The notes under the pieces were generated by a model, which made no database searches, was not told where the DNA came from, and saw only the letters and a list, made by a program, of their open reading frames with translations. Made by a program: the position numbers and the translations under genes. A stretch of 44,119 nt of DNA from Saprospiraceae bacterium (GTDB taxonomy: Bacteria > Bacteroidota > Bacteroidia > Chitinophagales > Saprospiraceae), in assembly GCA_020436935.1 (NCBI GenBank), contig JAGQWX010000043.1, positions 1-44,119 of the forward strand, read 5' to 3'. This document shows positions 4,470-13,379 of this stretch, piece after piece; within the stretch, counting starts at the first letter, position 1, and every line of letters begins with the position of its first letter.

Positions 4470-4737
4470 GGTTTATGGTTTGTCTAAACCTTTCAAAAAT
4501 AAAAGATTCCGTCTGAATGATATGTAACACCGGTTTCATTCAGACACCCAAGGAATCTGATGTGGCATTTCTATCTTATTTATAAAAAATAAATTTTCTT
4601 TTTCTCCACATTCAATTGCACAGGATTTGCTTTATATTGGCTTCAAGACCATTCGGACAAAGATTTGACCGTTTATGGGTTGATGGATCGATGGTTATAC
4701 AATTATTCATTTATAGATCAAAAAATTCAAATCGTTT

Positions 4738-5925
4738 ATGCAAAAAATTGGTATGCTGGGCTCCGGATTCATAGCCGAGTTTTACATTTCAGCCATTCAG
4801 GGGCAAAGAAGCAAAGACAAGGTCATCGCTATAGCCTCAAGAACCATGAGTGCTGTGGATAAGATAGCTGACAAATATGACATATCCTTCAGAAGTACTG
4901 AGATGCTGGACGTCATCAATCACCCGGAGGTGGACCTGGTATGCATAGGACTGCCCAATTACCTCCACAAGGCTGCCGTGCTGGCATGTGCAAAAGCCGG
5001 CAAAGGTGTCATTTGCACAAAACCACTGGGTCGAAATGCCGAAGAAGCATTGGAAATGCTTGAGGCTGTTGAAGAAGCCGGTGTATTCCACGGATACATG
5101 GAAGACCTTGTCTACACGCCTAAAACTTTGCGCACGATGGACAGCATTAAACAAGGTGCGATTGGCAAGGTGCTCTGGGCACGCTCCAGGGAAACGCACC
5201 CCGGACCACACAGCGACTGGTTTTGGGATAAAAATAAGGCCGGCGGTGGAGCCATCCTCGACCTTGCTTGTCATTGTATAGAAATAGCCCGGTGTTTCAT
5301 CGGGAAAGAACATAAGCCAATCGAAGTCATGTGCTGGGCAGATACACAGGTAAAGCCCATTGAAGCCGAAGACCATGCCATAGGTTTGGTAAAATACAGC
5401 AATGGGGCCATCGGACAGTTTGAGGTCAGCTGGGCATTCCGGGGGGGGCTAGATCTTAGAGATGAAGTGATGGGCACCCACGGCACAGTATGGCTCAATC
5501 ACTTTCTACGGACAGGGTTTGACATGTTTACGGCCCCTGGACAAGGAGGTTATGTCGCAGAAAAAGCCGAAAGCGATTCCGGATGGATCTTTCCCGTGGG
5601 TGACGAAAACCAGGATCTGGGATACAATCACATGTTTGCCGACATGTTTAACGCCAAGGAAAATGGAAGCTTGCCCGCAGAAACATTCTATGATGGTTAC
5701 ATTGTAAATGCCGTCATGGATGCAGCATATGCTTCAGTAAAATCTAAAAAATGGGAACCGGTTCTGCTCCCTGGCTGGAAAGGTCCCGAACCCGAAATCA
5801 AGAGCTCACCGGTTCTGGAAGACTATGACGATCAATACTATCTGATCAAGGAAGAACTCTTGCCTGACGGCTCCAAAAAAATCATTCTGAAGGACAAAAA
5901 CACAGGAGAGATCATCCAAAAATAG
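4738..5925 (+). CDS. Gfo/Idh/MocA-family oxidoreductase
   Basis: This 395-aa protein has the N-terminal Rossmann NAD(P)-binding motif GMLGSGFIAEFY (residues 5-16) and the C-terminal Gfo/Idh/MocA alpha/beta domain. These enzymes oxidise or reduce hydroxyl groups of sugars, inositols and related polyols. The usual EKP signature reads TKP (94-96) here; the catalytic-type lysine K95 is kept. DLACHCIEIARCF (about 178-190) supplies the histidine region of the active site. No signal peptide is seen, so it is cytosolic. The permease gene follows after 9 bp and is probably co-transcribed, which suggests uptake then oxidation of a carbohydrate or nucleoside-like compound. Substrate unknown. Confidence 0.88.
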   Translation: MQKIGMLGSGFIAEFYISAIQGQRSKDKVIAIASRTMSAVDKIADKYDISFRSTEMLDVINHPEVDLVCIGLPNYLHKAAVLACAKAGKGVICTKPLGRNAEEALEMLEAVEEAGVFHGYMEDLVYTPKTLRTMDSIKQGAIGKVLWARSRETHPGPHSDWFWDKNKAGGGAILDLACHCIEIARCFIGKEHKPIEVMCWADTQVKPIEAEDHAIGLVKYSNGAIGQFEVSWAFRGGLDLRDEVMGTHGTVWLNHFLRTGFDMFTAPGQGGYVAEKAESDSGWIFPVGDENQDLGYNHMFADMFNAKENGSLPAETFYDGYIVNAVMDAAYASVKSKKWEPVLLPGWKGPEPEIKSSPVLEDYDDQYYLIKEELLPDGSKKIILKDKNTGEIIQK

Positions 5926-7600: not shown

Positions 7601-7680
7601 GGTTTCAATTCTCAATTTTCAATTCTCGATTCTCAAATTTCAAATTTCAAATTTCATTTCTCAATTTTCAATTCTCTTTG
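7601..7680. repeat. Low-complexity TTTCAAATTTCAATTCTC tract
   Basis: About 80 bp of degenerate short repeats built from CAATTTTCAATTCTC and CAAATTT words, directly upstream of the CNNM/CorC-like gene. It is simple sequence with no visible coding content. Confidence 0.6.
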
Positions 7681-7710
7681 TCTATTTTTGTGATTCACCC
7701 AACTTAAGCT

Positions 7711-9771: not shown

Positions 9772-11976
9772 TTATAATACAATTAAAGCTCCTTCTTCGC
9801 GCAACCTTTGGATCAATTCATGATCAAGAAAAGCAGCCAACTCTAAACCCATGCCATTTAAAAAAGCCTCAAGTTTTTCGATCGTTGGTGTCTCATTTTC
9901 ATTGATCTTAAGGAATGATAATGCCTCCATCATTGGACCGGCTTCTGCTGCAAGAAGTTCGACTTCCAGACTTTCTCTCTTGTCATGAAATGTAAGGACC
10001 ATGCCTTCTATTACTTTTCCTCTTTTAACAACGGTGGTAGTTCTGACTTCGGGCATAGCGCCCAAATACACGATCTTCGCAGTTGGTTTGATGGCACTTT
10101 CTTCCTCTGATTCCAAACATCCCTGGATATAATCTCGAGGAATTTTGGTCTTAGGTATCCTAAAGTCAAACCATTCCTGGAGATCAAAATCAAAACACAT
10201 GCCGTGCATGTAGTTGAAGAGGGACTTTTTAAGGCCAAAGCTGAACTGATCATGATCGATTCCGGTGCTGTCTGTAAATTGTATGTCGTTATTGGCAAAT
10301 GTGATGTCTTTGTAGTCAGGTAAAATTCCGTAGGAATCAGGATCCAGCCCAACAGGACTATGGGCAGTGAGGGCAAATTGATGCCAAAAAGCGGAATGTA
10401 GGATGCCCATTTCAAACATTTGCCTGACCATCTCCAGACTATCGACGGTCTCCTGGATGGTTTGCGTTGGATAGCCATACATGAGGTAAGCATGGACCAT
10501 GATGCCCCCTTCTGTAAAATTTCGGGTGACTTTTGCTACCTGTTCTACCGTGACGCCTTTTTGAATCAGGGCCAATAACCGGTCTGATGCAACCTCCAAT
10601 CCACCTGACACAGCAATGCAGCCCGAAGCCTGCAACAACAAACAAAGATCTCTGGTAAATCTTTTCTCAAACCGGATGTTGGTCCACCAAGTGACACTCA
10701 ATTTTCTACGCAAAATCTCCAGGGCAAGTTCGCGCATAAGGGCCGGTGGTGCCGCTTCATCTACAAAATGAAATCCCCTTTCTCCTGTCTGAGCTATGAT
10801 GGTTTCCATCCGGTCCACCAGCATTTTAGCAGCAATGGGTTCATAAACCTTAATGTAATCCAGGGACACATCACAAAATGTGCACTTACCCCAGTAACAG
10901 CCATGGGCCATGGTGAGTTTGTTCCATCGTCCGTCACTCCACAAACTGTGCATGGGATTGGCCATTTCGATGACGGAGATGTATTTGTTCAGCAATAGGT
11001 CGCTATAATCCGGCGTGCCAACTTCGCTGTGCTTATAATCTCGCCTTAATGAATGGTTGTTGTAAACAATGGCACCATTCTCCAACAAAAAAGTCCTTTT
11101 ATGAAGTTGAAAGTCGGGATTGGACGGATGTGGGTTCATCACATTGGAAACCAGCAACTCTATGGGCAATTCTCCGTCATCCAGCGTTATAAAATCAAAG
11201 TATTCAAAGACTCTGACGTCATTGACAGACCTCAGCTCTGTATTTGGAAAGCCCCCTCCCATCGCAGTTTTGATGTGGGGGAAATGTTGCTTTATGAATT
11301 GAGCACATCTGAAGGCTGTGTATAAATTCCCCGGAAAAGGAACAGAAAAACAAACCAGTTTTGGCTTATGTTCGATCAGTCTGGATTGTAAAATATCCAG
11401 GCTGTAAGTATCAATAAAACTTCGGGGTCCCAGAAGAGAATCATGCAATTCGTCGAATGAATTGGCGCTCCTCCCCAGGCGTTCCGCATACCTTGAGAAC
11501 CCAAAATGGCCATCCACACACTCCACGATAAAATCAGAAATATCCTCCAGAAAAAGTGTAGCCAGATGTTTGGCCTTGTCCTGAATGCCCATCGACCCGA
11601 AAGCCCATTCCATATCTTCCAGTTGTGCGAATCTCGATGCCTGAGGCAGCATGTTTTCACTGGCTATCTTCCGCGCCACGGTTTGATTGTTGCCTTGCAA
11701 AAAAGAGATGGCTTCATCCACGACATGCATATACTCTTCTCGAAGCGCATAAATCCTTCTCGCATTGTCTGACTTGATTTGGCCCCTGGACTCAGCAAGT
11801 TCAAACATATGTCTGAGACCTTCTTTTGAAAACAACTTCAAAATCACCTCTATGCCCAGATCCATTTGAAAACAGGATACATTGATGGTGTTTAGAAAAC
11901 CCTTCAGGTAAGCCGTCGCCGGATAAGGTGTGTTGAGCTGGGTAAACGGAGGTGTGACAAGGAGTAAATCGGCCAA
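9772..11976 (-). CDS. B12-binding-type radical SAM protein with CX4CX2C motif
   Basis: The 734-aa protein begins with a B12-binding-like Rossmann segment (DLLLVTPPFTQLNTPYPATA). The central radical SAM barrel contains HGCYWGKCTFCD, giving Cys360, Cys365 and Cys368 as probable [4Fe-4S] ligands with spacing CX4CX2C instead of the usual CX3CX2C. Later segments HFVDEAAPP, VTWWTNIRFEKRF and VSGGLEVASDRLL fit B12-dependent radical SAM enzymes. The C-terminal 130 residues do not match a family I know. It is probably a cytosolic enzyme doing a methylation or other C-centred rearrangement; the substrate is unknown. The start is TTG 11976 with a TACCTTTG box 16 bp upstream. Its upstream region holds the tandem palindrome array. 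Confidence 0.8.
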   Translation of the reverse strand: MADLLLVTPPFTQLNTPYPATAYLKGFLNTINVSCFQMDLGIEVILKLFSKEGLRHMFELAESRGQIKSDNARRIYALREEYMHVVDEAISFLQGNNQTVARKIASENMLPQASRFAQLEDMEWAFGSMGIQDKAKHLATLFLEDISDFIVECVDGHFGFSRYAERLGRSANSFDELHDSLLGPRSFIDTYSLDILQSRLIEHKPKLVCFSVPFPGNLYTAFRCAQFIKQHFPHIKTAMGGGFPNTELRSVNDVRVFEYFDFITLDDGELPIELLVSNVMNPHPSNPDFQLHKRTFLLENGAIVYNNHSLRRDYKHSEVGTPDYSDLLLNKYISVIEMANPMHSLWSDGRWNKLTMAHGCYWGKCTFCDVSLDYIKVYEPIAAKMLVDRMETIIAQTGERGFHFVDEAAPPALMRELALEILRRKLSVTWWTNIRFEKRFTRDLCLLLQASGCIAVSGGLEVASDRLLALIQKGVTVEQVAKVTRNFTEGGIMVHAYLMYGYPTQTIQETVDSLEMVRQMFEMGILHSAFWHQFALTAHSPVGLDPDSYGILPDYKDITFANNDIQFTDSTGIDHDQFSFGLKKSLFNYMHGMCFDFDLQEWFDFRIPKTKIPRDYIQGCLESEEESAIKPTAKIVYLGAMPEVRTTTVVKRGKVIEGMVLTFHDKRESLEVELLAAEAGPMMEALSFLKINENETPTIEKLEAFLNGMGLELAAFLDHELIQRLREEGALIVL

Positions 11977-12148: not shown

Positions 12149-12190
12149 CTCAATATGTGGTGCACTTTCGACCAATCGAAAAGGAATAAT
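12149..12190 (+). repeat. Degenerate unit at the left edge of the palindrome array
   Basis: This stretch aligns with the array unit (ATATGTGG...CACTTTCGACCAATCG...AAGGAATAAT) but has several substitutions and has lost the perfect palindrome. It looks like a decayed edge copy. Confidence 0.5.
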
Positions 12191-12562
12191 GCAACATGTG
12201 AATCACATTCGTCCTATCGGAAAACAAGATCGCAACATGTGAATCACATTAGTCCATTCGGAAAAGAAAGATCGCAACATGTGAATCACATTCGTCCATT
12301 CGGAATGGAAAATCGCAACATGTGAATCACATTCGTCCATTCGGAATGGAAGATCGCAACATGTGAATCACATTCGTCCTATCGGAAAAGAAAGATTGCA
12401 ACATGTGAATCACATTCGTCCAATCAGAAAACAAGATCGCAACATGTGAATCACATTCGTCCATTCGGAAAGCAAAATCGCAACATATGAATCACATTAG
12501 TCCAATCGGAAAGAAAGATCGCAACATGTGAATCACATTCGTCCAATCAGAAAAGAAAGATC
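12191..12562. repeat. Nine tandem 41-42 bp units with a phased 13-bp palindrome
   Basis: Nine units start at 12191, 12232, 12274, 12315, 12356, 12398, 12439, 12480 and 12521. Eight contain the identical core GCAACATGTGAATCACATT; unit 8 has one change (ATATG). The core holds ATGTGAATCACAT, a perfect palindrome with one central base. The 17-18 bp second half (CC[AT][AT]TC[GA]GAAAA-type) varies. The 41-42 bp period is about four helical turns, so all palindromes lie on one face of DNA. Because unit lengths are not multiples of three, no protein is encoded. It sits between the divergent radical SAM and lipoprotein genes. It may be a multi-site binding array or a structured RNA source. Confidence 0.9.
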
Positions 12563-12875
12563 TCAACATTCCATAACCAAATACATGAGTCGATCCATAA
12601 CACAACTTTAAATTTGCAATAACTATTTACTCACAATTTTTCATTTTACCAGTAAGTTATAAGACAAATTAAAGCACATAAGATTCAGCTTTTACACATC
12701 AATTAATGTCATCGTCACTAAGATTGCATTCAGGGATTTTTATAAGAAAGTATTGGAAGTCGGCAGGATCCTAAAAATAGCTTACATCGAAGTTTCATTA
12801 TTATATCTCTGAAAATTTTGCGGCTGGCATTTTTGACCAAACACTACCTCTTTTCTCACGCTAAATCTTATCGCT

Positions 12876-13379
12876 ATGTACAGATTGTTTTTCTTTTCAG
12901 TTCTCATTATGGGTTTGCTTTCCTGTTATGAAGAAACTACCTTATTCGATGAACCGGAATCTCCGCAAACCGGTACTTATCCCAATGTAGATCAAAACTT
13001 ATGGTCACATTTCGCAAACTTCGAAAAAGAAGCCGCTGCCAGAGGCTTCAACATTGAACTCAATCGACTGCGTCTGAATGCAGTAATATCAGAAATTGCA
13101 GAGAATGGCGTATTGGGACAATGTCAGTACAGTAGCCAGTACCCCAATCGCGTAACCATTGACAAAACCTTCTGGTCAAGGAGTTCTGAACTCTACCGTG
13201 AATTTGTCGTTTTTCATGAACTTGGTCATTGCGTTTTGGACCGGGACCACAAAGAAGATCAGGACCAAAGGGGCTTATGTCTCAGCATCATGAGGAGCGG
13301 CCTGGGCGACTGCAGGGATGCCTACAATTCGGTCAACCGTACTTATTATCTGAATGAGTTGTTTGAAAATGTCCGTTAA
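12876..13379 (+). CDS. Putative metzincin-like zinc-binding lipoprotein
   Basis: The 167-aa protein has a lipoprotein signal ending LLSC (Cys17), so it should be anchored in the envelope. Near the C-terminus HELGH (His114, Glu115, His118) with a third histidine, His125, forms a zinc-protease-like motif HExxHx6H, and SIM at 137-139 resembles the methionine turn of metzincins. Metzincins normally have five residues between the second and third histidines; here there are six, so the call is family-like rather than exact. The rest is short, with four cysteines that could form disulfides. Its promoter region would contain the palindrome array. It may be a small surface metalloprotease; activity is unproven. 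Confidence 0.65.
   Translation: MYRLFFFSVLIMGLLSCYEETTLFDEPESPQTGTYPNVDQNLWSHFANFEKEAAARGFNIELNRLRLNAVISEIAENGVLGQCQYSSQYPNRVTIDKTFWSRSSELYREFVVFHELGHCVLDRDHKEDQDQRGLCLSIMRSGLGDCRDAYNSVNRTYYLNELFENVR

Follow-up and report, generated by a model that had tools for sequence, protein, structure and literature searches.

An intergenic tandem array between two divergent genes

The window, by which we mean the whole stretch of 44,119 nucleotides analysed here from a Saprospiraceae genome, contains a tandem array in the intergenic region between a radical SAM protein gene and a gene encoding a putative lipoprotein. The relevant features are as follows.

9772..11976, minus strand: radical SAM protein gene (PF04055, 734 aa), flanking the array
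12151..12191, plus strand: decayed tenth (first) unit, beginning CAATATGTGGTGCACTTTCGACCAATCG, with at most 6 mismatches to the first 23 core bases
12192..12562, plus strand: nine-unit family A array, each unit consisting of the 26-bp core CMACATGTGAATCACATTCGTCCAAT and a 15-16 bp spacer, period 41-42 bp
12192..12217, plus strand: first good 26-bp core, with the 13-bp palindrome ATGTGAATCACAT inside at 12196-12208
12481..12506, plus strand: variant core carrying ATATGAATCACAT
12876..13379, plus strand: gene for a 167-aa protein, a putative lipoprotein whose match to a metallopeptidase family is weak (PF18894, 23.2 bits, cut-off 23.7), flanking the array

The nine units start at 12192, 12233, 12275, 12316, 12357, 12399, 12440, 12481 and 12522, spaced 41 or 42 bp apart, and the palindrome is exact in eight of them, with the single variant in the unit at 12481. 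Both the unit count and the palindrome had been described in an initial annotation of this DNA and hold, with the decayed tenth unit at 12151 as an addition. Tandem Repeats Finder (TRF) called the array at 12163-12569 with a period of 41, plus higher-order rows at 124 and 165. By our own arithmetic, about 0.001 exact matches to a given 13-mer are expected by chance in 44 kb, and the array is thus far beyond chance. Elsewhere in the window, at 7603-7688, lies a heptamer array (TCAATTC / TTTCAAT) with a 7- and 21-bp period; arrays with periods of 7, 8, 14, 16 or 21 bp are numerous in the sampled stretches of the window's genome and of the genomes G004 and G005.

The array belongs to a dispersed family of at least eight arrays

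The genome of the window (G000) comprises 5.82 Mb in 181 contigs, of which C119 carries the window, and holds 50 copies of the 13-mer. A 23-base piece of the core, allowing up to 3 mismatches, was found at 68 places in this genome, all of them inside arrays. These arrays lie on ten contigs: C119, the end of C9, the starts of C10, C129 and C109, and C110, C132, C147, C153 and C169. On the basis of unit length and spacer type, C9/C10 and C129/C109 probably each represent one array split by a contig break, which leaves 8 arrays with 73 units (the partial unit at the very start of C10 not counted) in unrelated intergenic regions, joined by one common core. We refer to these repeats as family A. 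A calibrated sequence model, applied to 150 of 2329 first-look candidates, returned 76 matches at E<=10 and was bimodal over this scored set: 69 matches had an E of 4e-5 or better and fell within arrays, while the remaining seven were four edge or decayed array units, one unit read twice and two chance-level places (C157 and C77). No solo copy of A was seen, either in the search of the genome with up to 3 mismatches or among the 150 candidates scored with the model.

Units are arranged head-to-tail in all 8 arrays. The spacers are locus-specific and 14-17 bp long, apart from those of about 49 bp in the two-unit array on C147. Higher-order periods of 80-84, 122-124 and 165 bp make tandem growth of the arrays evident; on C153, two unit types alternate. 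Several end units are decayed.

The core is retained while the spacers change

Column conservation across the 73 units identified the 26-bp core, rather than the 13-bp palindrome, as the conserved block. Twenty-five of its 26 positions are 89-99% conserved, the exception being position 2 (C 70%, A 23%, T 7%), and conservation falls to 62% at position 27. In conservation, the palindrome (positions 5-17) does not surpass positions 18-24. Cores diverged by 0.035-0.121 within arrays and by 0.057-0.162 between arrays, compared with 0.163-0.500 and 0.356-0.708, respectively, for the spacers, computed on pairs of equal length. In the window array, the six 41-bp units gave a pairwise divergence of 0.062 for the core and 0.178 for the spacer when the decayed unit was excluded, and 0.121 and 0.224-0.232 when it was included (seven units). 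We then slid a 26-column frame around the unit in each of the seven arrays with enough units, C147 having two units only: in all seven the least variable stretch started within -4 to +2 columns of the core, and in four of them exactly at the core start.

Almost identical sets of bases are thus preserved in separate arrays as the spacers drift. This points either to a factor reading the core or to renewal of the core by a copying process. The earlier proposal of selection on the palindrome stands in so far as the core is kept and the flanks change in seven of seven arrays, but the block concerned measures 26 bp and not 13. The comparison supports maintenance of the core by selection or by another sequence-specific process, and we consider it very probable, judging from these patterns of sequence conservation, that a factor recognises the 26-bp core in trans. 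A different account would be that of a neutral satellite, in which the repeats spread and are homogenised by recombination with neither a binder nor a function. The higher-order periods and the alternating unit types on C153 look like ordinary tandem duplication, and the decayed end units fit this account as well; homogenisation should, however, affect spacers as much as cores, whereas almost the same set of 26 columns is protected in each of seven arrays, and the loci have the core in common but not the spacers. We regard a purely neutral origin as unlikely.

Short palindromic repeats with regular spacers also call to mind a CRISPR-like array or a structured RNA, with ATGTG and CACAT forming a 5-bp stem around an AAT loop. 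CRISPR spacers are unrelated to one another and about 25-40 bp long, whereas family A spacers measure 14-17 bp and are similar within an array. As for RNA, there was no Rfam match at the gathering score, RNAalifold returned zero consensus pairs on 45 units, and the stem contains no compensatory change. This explanation is hardly credible.

A second family with a different core

A 218-kb sample of the same genome yielded an 18-unit array with a 46-bp period and the core GTAAATGTGACATATACGTCA, here called family B. Allowing up to 2 mismatches, a 19-base piece of core B matches the genome at 132 places; the same search found none in five genus-mates and a lone match in G045, which is more distant. 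Fifteen B stretches were examined, leaving out the loci on C128 and C137. Spacing differs by locus (46, 47/48, 47/58, 60-66, 63-77, 67-85, 70/75, 100-105 and 212-218 bp), and some copies are single. The 21-bp B core coincides exactly with the least variable 21-column window in four of the six testable arrays, out of nine given; the exceptions are those on C126 and C92, and three more arrays have too few units of equal length. The A and B cores are weakly alike, with 236 of 20000 mononucleotide and 1427 of 20000 dinucleotide shuffles scoring as high, so that kinship between them is suggestive only.

On C147 both families occur in one intergenic region (L037, at about 5430-5650 of the contig), where an altered B core, AAATGTGACATATACCTCA, sits within the A spacer. 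Decayed A cores that we suspected by eye inside the B array on C108 gave no model match at E up to 10. Two single B cores (L185 and L196; C55, 59343 and C122, 33679) have about 40 bp of similar flank, AATTTTCCAATCTAATTTCTAACACCTAAC, and some B copies thus seem to travel within longer repeats. In the B array of L186, some spacings are multiples of 7 (63, 70 and 77 bp) and others are 71 or 72 bp. We rejected a coding role for the arrays, since no reading frame is maintained at periods of 40, 41 and 46 bp; frames of 86 and 101 aa over the arrays on C110 and C108 were taken as by-products of periods of 81 and 75 bp.

Neighbouring genes and helical phase do not define the family

In its original reading, the window array was tied to the two divergent genes beside it and thought to present all its sites on the same side of the helix. 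As an operator array of this kind it would control the radical SAM and lipoprotein genes, and its position between divergent genes fits that view. The genome-wide survey speaks against the tie. The pairs of genes flanking the 8 A arrays are as follows.

Radical SAM and putative metallopeptidase (window)
DUF202 and succinyl-CoA ligase
ArsR-like and D-Ala-D-Ala ligase
ThuA and CysS
DUF3641 radical SAM and GH113
Hybrid two-component regulator and TonB receptor
Peptidase M15 and enolase-superfamily enzyme
Unassigned protein and RpoC

No common theme is apparent among these genes, and two of the arrays lie between convergent genes, where neither neighbour starts beside the array. Taking A and B together, 22 loci comprise 6 divergent, 6 convergent and 10 co-directional arrangements. 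These are the 8 A loci and 14 of 15 fetched B loci (L135 was excluded as its left neighbour was out of view), scored on mechanical ORF calls of at least 80 aa, with B locus L185 uncertain. Such a split fits insertion into any intergenic DNA and not promoter operators.

The A core (24 bases, up to 3 mismatches) was found in none of 59 relatives, five genus-mates included, and all five of these have the radical SAM homologue, which is thus not specific to the array. The putative lipoprotein and four further window neighbours were not found in the 4-10 kb examined around the radical SAM homologue in the five genus-mates, so that these stretches offered no orthologous empty site for comparison. 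Exact 20-21-base A cores had no match in public genome-contig or viral-contig collections, and the A array had none in plasmid or phage collections. Sequence-model matches in relatives were weak and scattered, and the four best (E 0.002-0.011; L086-L089) were discarded as copies of A because they lie outside any such array, one of them within a 105/318-bp repeat that, judged by eye, looks coding. By these searches family A appears to be species-specific.

The claim of a common helical face depends on the helical repeat that is assumed. Over the ten positions of the window array, coherence is 0.98 at 10.3 and 0.84 at 10.4 bp per turn, but drops to 0.39 at 10.5. The corresponding values are 0.97, 0.76 and 0.42 for C109, 0.99, 0.87 and 0.68 for C129, and 0.59, 0.90 and 0.80 for C132, so that in the four arrays with 41-42 bp units the best coherence reaches 0.90-0.99, in the last three at one of the three values. 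In the 40-bp arrays (C9, C10 and C153) coherence is 0.54, 0.29 and 0.05; on C110 and C169 it is 0.06-0.19 and 0.18-0.27, and in nine family B arrays 0.01-0.73. Phasing is kept in the 41-42 bp arrays and lost in the 40-bp arrays, on C110 and C169 and in most B arrays, and is therefore a property of some arrays and not of family A as a whole. Given the seven other loci, the genus-mates that keep the radical SAM gene but have no core, and the loss of phase elsewhere, a phased operator array dedicated to the two window genes is very unlikely. The initial annotation had counted occurrence at many unrelated loci with random spacing against a binding array; the loci are indeed many and unrelated, but at each of them the spacing is regular.

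One array of each family adjoins an ArsR-like gene

Two of the flanking genes, one per family, encode small paralogous proteins, here ArsR-A and ArsR-B.

C129, 330-689 (L035, 330-689): ArsR-A, 119 aa, transcribed away from its A array, which ends 134 bp before the gene start
C122, 20942-21301 (L195, 2443-2802): ArsR-B, 119 aa, transcribed away from its B array, which ends 122 bp before the gene start

The two proteins are 39% identical and are each other's only homologues in the genome at an E of 1e-6 or better, and in both cases the array lies upstream of the gene start. ArsR-A scores above the cut-offs of PF01022 and PF12840 and ArsR-B above that of PF12840 (HTH_20), and a three-sequence profile matches the ArsR structure 6j0e in the PDB with an E of 9.7e-8. 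Both are thus predicted to carry a winged-helix ArsR domain, which places them in the same fold family as the ArsR/SmtB repressors. They differ from the metalloregulators of that group in having 0 and 1 cysteines, respectively, which makes a metal-sensing role unlikely, and in scoring 42.3 and 40.4 bits against the cut-off of 55 of NF033788 (HTH_metalloreg, NCBIfam). ArsR-type dimers bind inverted repeats. We know of no ArsR protein whose operators occur in tens of tandem copies at scattered loci.

How much weight does this pairing bear? Our own rough estimate of the chance of a paired coincidence is about 0.004, assuming about 5000 genes, 16 and 30 flanking places and 50-100 HTH paralogue pairs, for a link that was noticed after the fact and consists of two cases in this genome. 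WYL, LysR and HTCS genes also flank arrays, so that an HTH neighbour alone is not rare. Whether the core-reading factor is the ArsR-like protein is, on this sequence evidence, about an even bet.

ArsR-like homologues and repeats in related genomes

A survey of 398 family genomes at an E of 1e-10 or better returned 19 homologues of the ArsR-like protein in 11 genomes, and arrays or direct repeats adjoin five of the 19. Six homologues form a Cys-rich ArsR clade (6-7 Cys, support 100/99), none of which lies beside repeats. Among the 13 Cys-poor homologues, five adjoin repeats, namely both of those in the window's genome and three of six in G103, a genome of another genus. No repeats were seen beside the Cys-poor homologues in G144 (two), G243 and G289, nor beside the other three in G103. 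ArsR homologues on plasmids are 31-36% identical among the records listed (10 of 15), and no ArsR homologue was found in viral contigs.

In its 2.7 Mb, G103 encodes six Cys-poor ArsR-like paralogues that start with MAFSK (L310, L320, L321, L323, L324 and L325), an unusual expansion. Beside one of them, about 15 bp from the 3' end of the gene, lies a 5-unit array with a period of 108-110 bp that contains five copies of GTATTTTGACAAAATAC and carries the perfect palindrome GTATTTTG-A-CAAAATAC, which is absent from a 92.6-kb control sample of G103. The other two cases are two-copy direct repeats only, flanking the gene on both sides: one of 84 bp (93% identical) and one of 43-48 bp (81-84%). L320 as a further carrier of the L325 repeat was dismissed as a chance match. 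In none of 20 G103 control stretches did a non-coding direct repeat of 35 bp or more occur within 1.5 kb, and three had coding ones only; 3 of 6 against 0 of 20 gives a one-sided Fisher P of 0.008 by our own arithmetic, with controls that were taken from contig starts (92.6 kb) and were not anchored on genes. From these comparisons the ArsR pairing seems to recur in G103.

The genus-mate G005 gives a different picture. Upstream of its ArsR-like gene there is no array but the end of a multi-copy element, which is identical over at least 55 bp, carries TGCTTATAAGCA and abuts the ArsR-like start codon (C227, 1-77, of that genome). The element end is present seven times, at C227 and at six other places (L300-L306). 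We had considered TGCTTATAAGCA as the cognate core of a third family and rejected it, because it is the end of a longer repeat that looks like an insertion sequence. A 572-kb sample of G005, about 10% of the genome, contained no A or B core array. It does contain a dispersed perfect palindrome of its own, AGACGCAAGGCCTTGCG(TCT), with five copies at three loci (L262, 17796 and 17928; L264, 17285 and 17374; L284, 8556), two of the loci holding pairs separated by 132 and 89 bp. A CGTC end is present in three of the five. With no known ArsR link, this palindrome indicates that such sequences can occur where no ArsR partner is visible; its weight falls about equally on that view and on palindrome families being common here.

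Comparison with known repeats and mobile elements

The initial annotation knew of no described system of this kind, and in doing so overlooked REPs and the arrays of dRS3, or neisserial intergenic mosaic elements (NIME): dispersed palindromic intergenic repeats are already known, and the dRS3 arrays of Neisseria are the nearest in look. According to PMC3898611, dRS3 has a core of about 20 bp, ATTCCC(N8)GGGAAT, in which 6-bp terminal inverted repeats enclose 8 free bases; its about 650-725 copies per genome are concentrated in intergenic arrays with different spacer DNA, are joined with RS elements of 30-160 bp and are used by a phage integrase. Families A and B resemble this description in having inverted-repeat cores in intergenic arrays with differing spacers. 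They differ from it in core sequence and length (26 and 21 bp), in their head-to-tail order, in far lower copy numbers and in the ArsR-like gene beside one array per family.

In CGTC REPs, the tag stands directly before the stem. In family A, CGTC follows the palindrome after one base on the same strand (ATGTGAATCACAT-T-CGTCC), which equals GACG before it on the other strand. REPs, as described in PMC3733652, are extragenic palindromes of 20-40 bp, some families being species-specific and some genomes holding several; CGTC REPs carry the motif at one end, have stems of 8-9 bp and loops of 4-5, and occur mostly as head-to-head dimers, with head-to-tail arrangements negligible. The family A palindrome forms a 5-bp stem with a 3-base loop (as duplex, 6-bp arms around one base), and all 8 arrays are head-to-tail. 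GTAG REPs have GTAG before the stem and a linked RAYT. In family B, many units carry GTAG or GGAG at that place but others AACG or GCCG, and neither family has a linked RAYT, as judged within 1.5 kb of the two Y1 genes of the genome.

These parallels raise the possibility that A and B are REP- or dRS3-like elements spread by a transposase or phage integrase, with the core as the recombination site and the ArsR genes as mere neighbours. Arrays of this type are known, including as phage integrase targets (PMC3898611, PMC3733652), the 22 A and B loci display no promoter preference, the genome has two Y1 transposase genes, and G005 has a different dispersed palindrome of its own. On the other hand, no A or B core lies within 1.5 kb of either Y1 gene, for which reason we discarded a RAYT as the mobiliser, and the hairpins around the Y1 gene on C141 belong to another family; compared with CGTC REPs, the stem is too short and the tag stands on the opposite side, and the head-to-tail order is not that of most REPs. 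A transposing unit should moreover leave solo copies, none of which was seen for A, though some B copies are single. Taken together, this makes ArsR genes as bystanders of a mobile element rather doubtful.

The RAYT-like gene on C141 (L199, 10284-13625) lies amid hairpins with a CTAAAG/CTTTAG centre (GTGCTAAAGCAC, GGGGCTAAAGCCCC and GGACTTTAGTCC), similar ones occur in L147 at about 4618-5170, and this looks like a genuine REP-type family of the genome. The second Y1 gene (L198; C95, 43229-46588) is IS200-like by its look and has GGCTAAAGCC / CTGAAG hairpins nearby.

A protein that binds repeat arrays has a precedent in Cbp1, an HTH protein that binds the CRISPR arrays of Sulfolobales and forms chromatin-like structures there with Cren7 (PMC10883916). 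Cbp1 shows that such a mode of action exists and could serve as a model for the ArsR-like proteins; we claim no kinship. Cbp1 differs in its targets, which are CRISPR arrays, and in its HTH domains, of which there are at least three, and ArsR-A scores 16.2 bits against the NCBIfam Cbp1 model with its cut-off of 140. Among titles and abstract openings in the open PMC literature, we found no account of an ArsR-type partner for arrays of this kind, and a dedicated ArsR-type partner would be the new element.

A proposed protein partner for dispersed satellite arrays

Our preferred reading is that linked ArsR-type proteins bind A and B, which would be satellites of a REP/dRS3-like kind. We assign this reading a probability of roughly 0.5, the binding being predicted from sequence and gene order. 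The window array would then be one locus of family A, a set of dispersed, intergenic, head-to-tail tandem repeats whose 26-bp core is read in trans by one factor. That factor may well be ArsR-A, encoded beside the C129 array, and family B may likewise be bound by its paralogue ArsR-B beside the C122 array. Each ArsR-like protein might autoregulate through the neighbouring array, while the other arrays might act as a nucleoprotein or titration reservoir of the same operators; we put forward this division of roles as a possibility only. Arrays would have grown as copies slipped or exchanged unequally, and would have spread at little cost to intergenic sites; the window copy would owe its place beside the radical SAM and lipoprotein genes mostly to chance. 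A DNA-binding protein by itself does not explain the dispersal.

A bolder and tentative extension is a two-part satellite, composed of a Cys-poor ArsR-type protein and its own dispersed family of palindromic tandem arrays. Divergent pairs would coexist in one genome, as A and B, and recur with new cores in G103, protein and core co-evolving.

The pairing of ArsR-A and ArsR-B with their arrays permits a specific and cheap test, namely protein A against core A, B against B, and the cross pairs. If the preferred reading is true, a class of bacterial satellite DNA would gain its protein partner, together with natural co-evolved pairs of protein and site. If the two-part system is also true, these genomes would hold a bacterial counterpart of satellite DNA with a dedicated binding protein.
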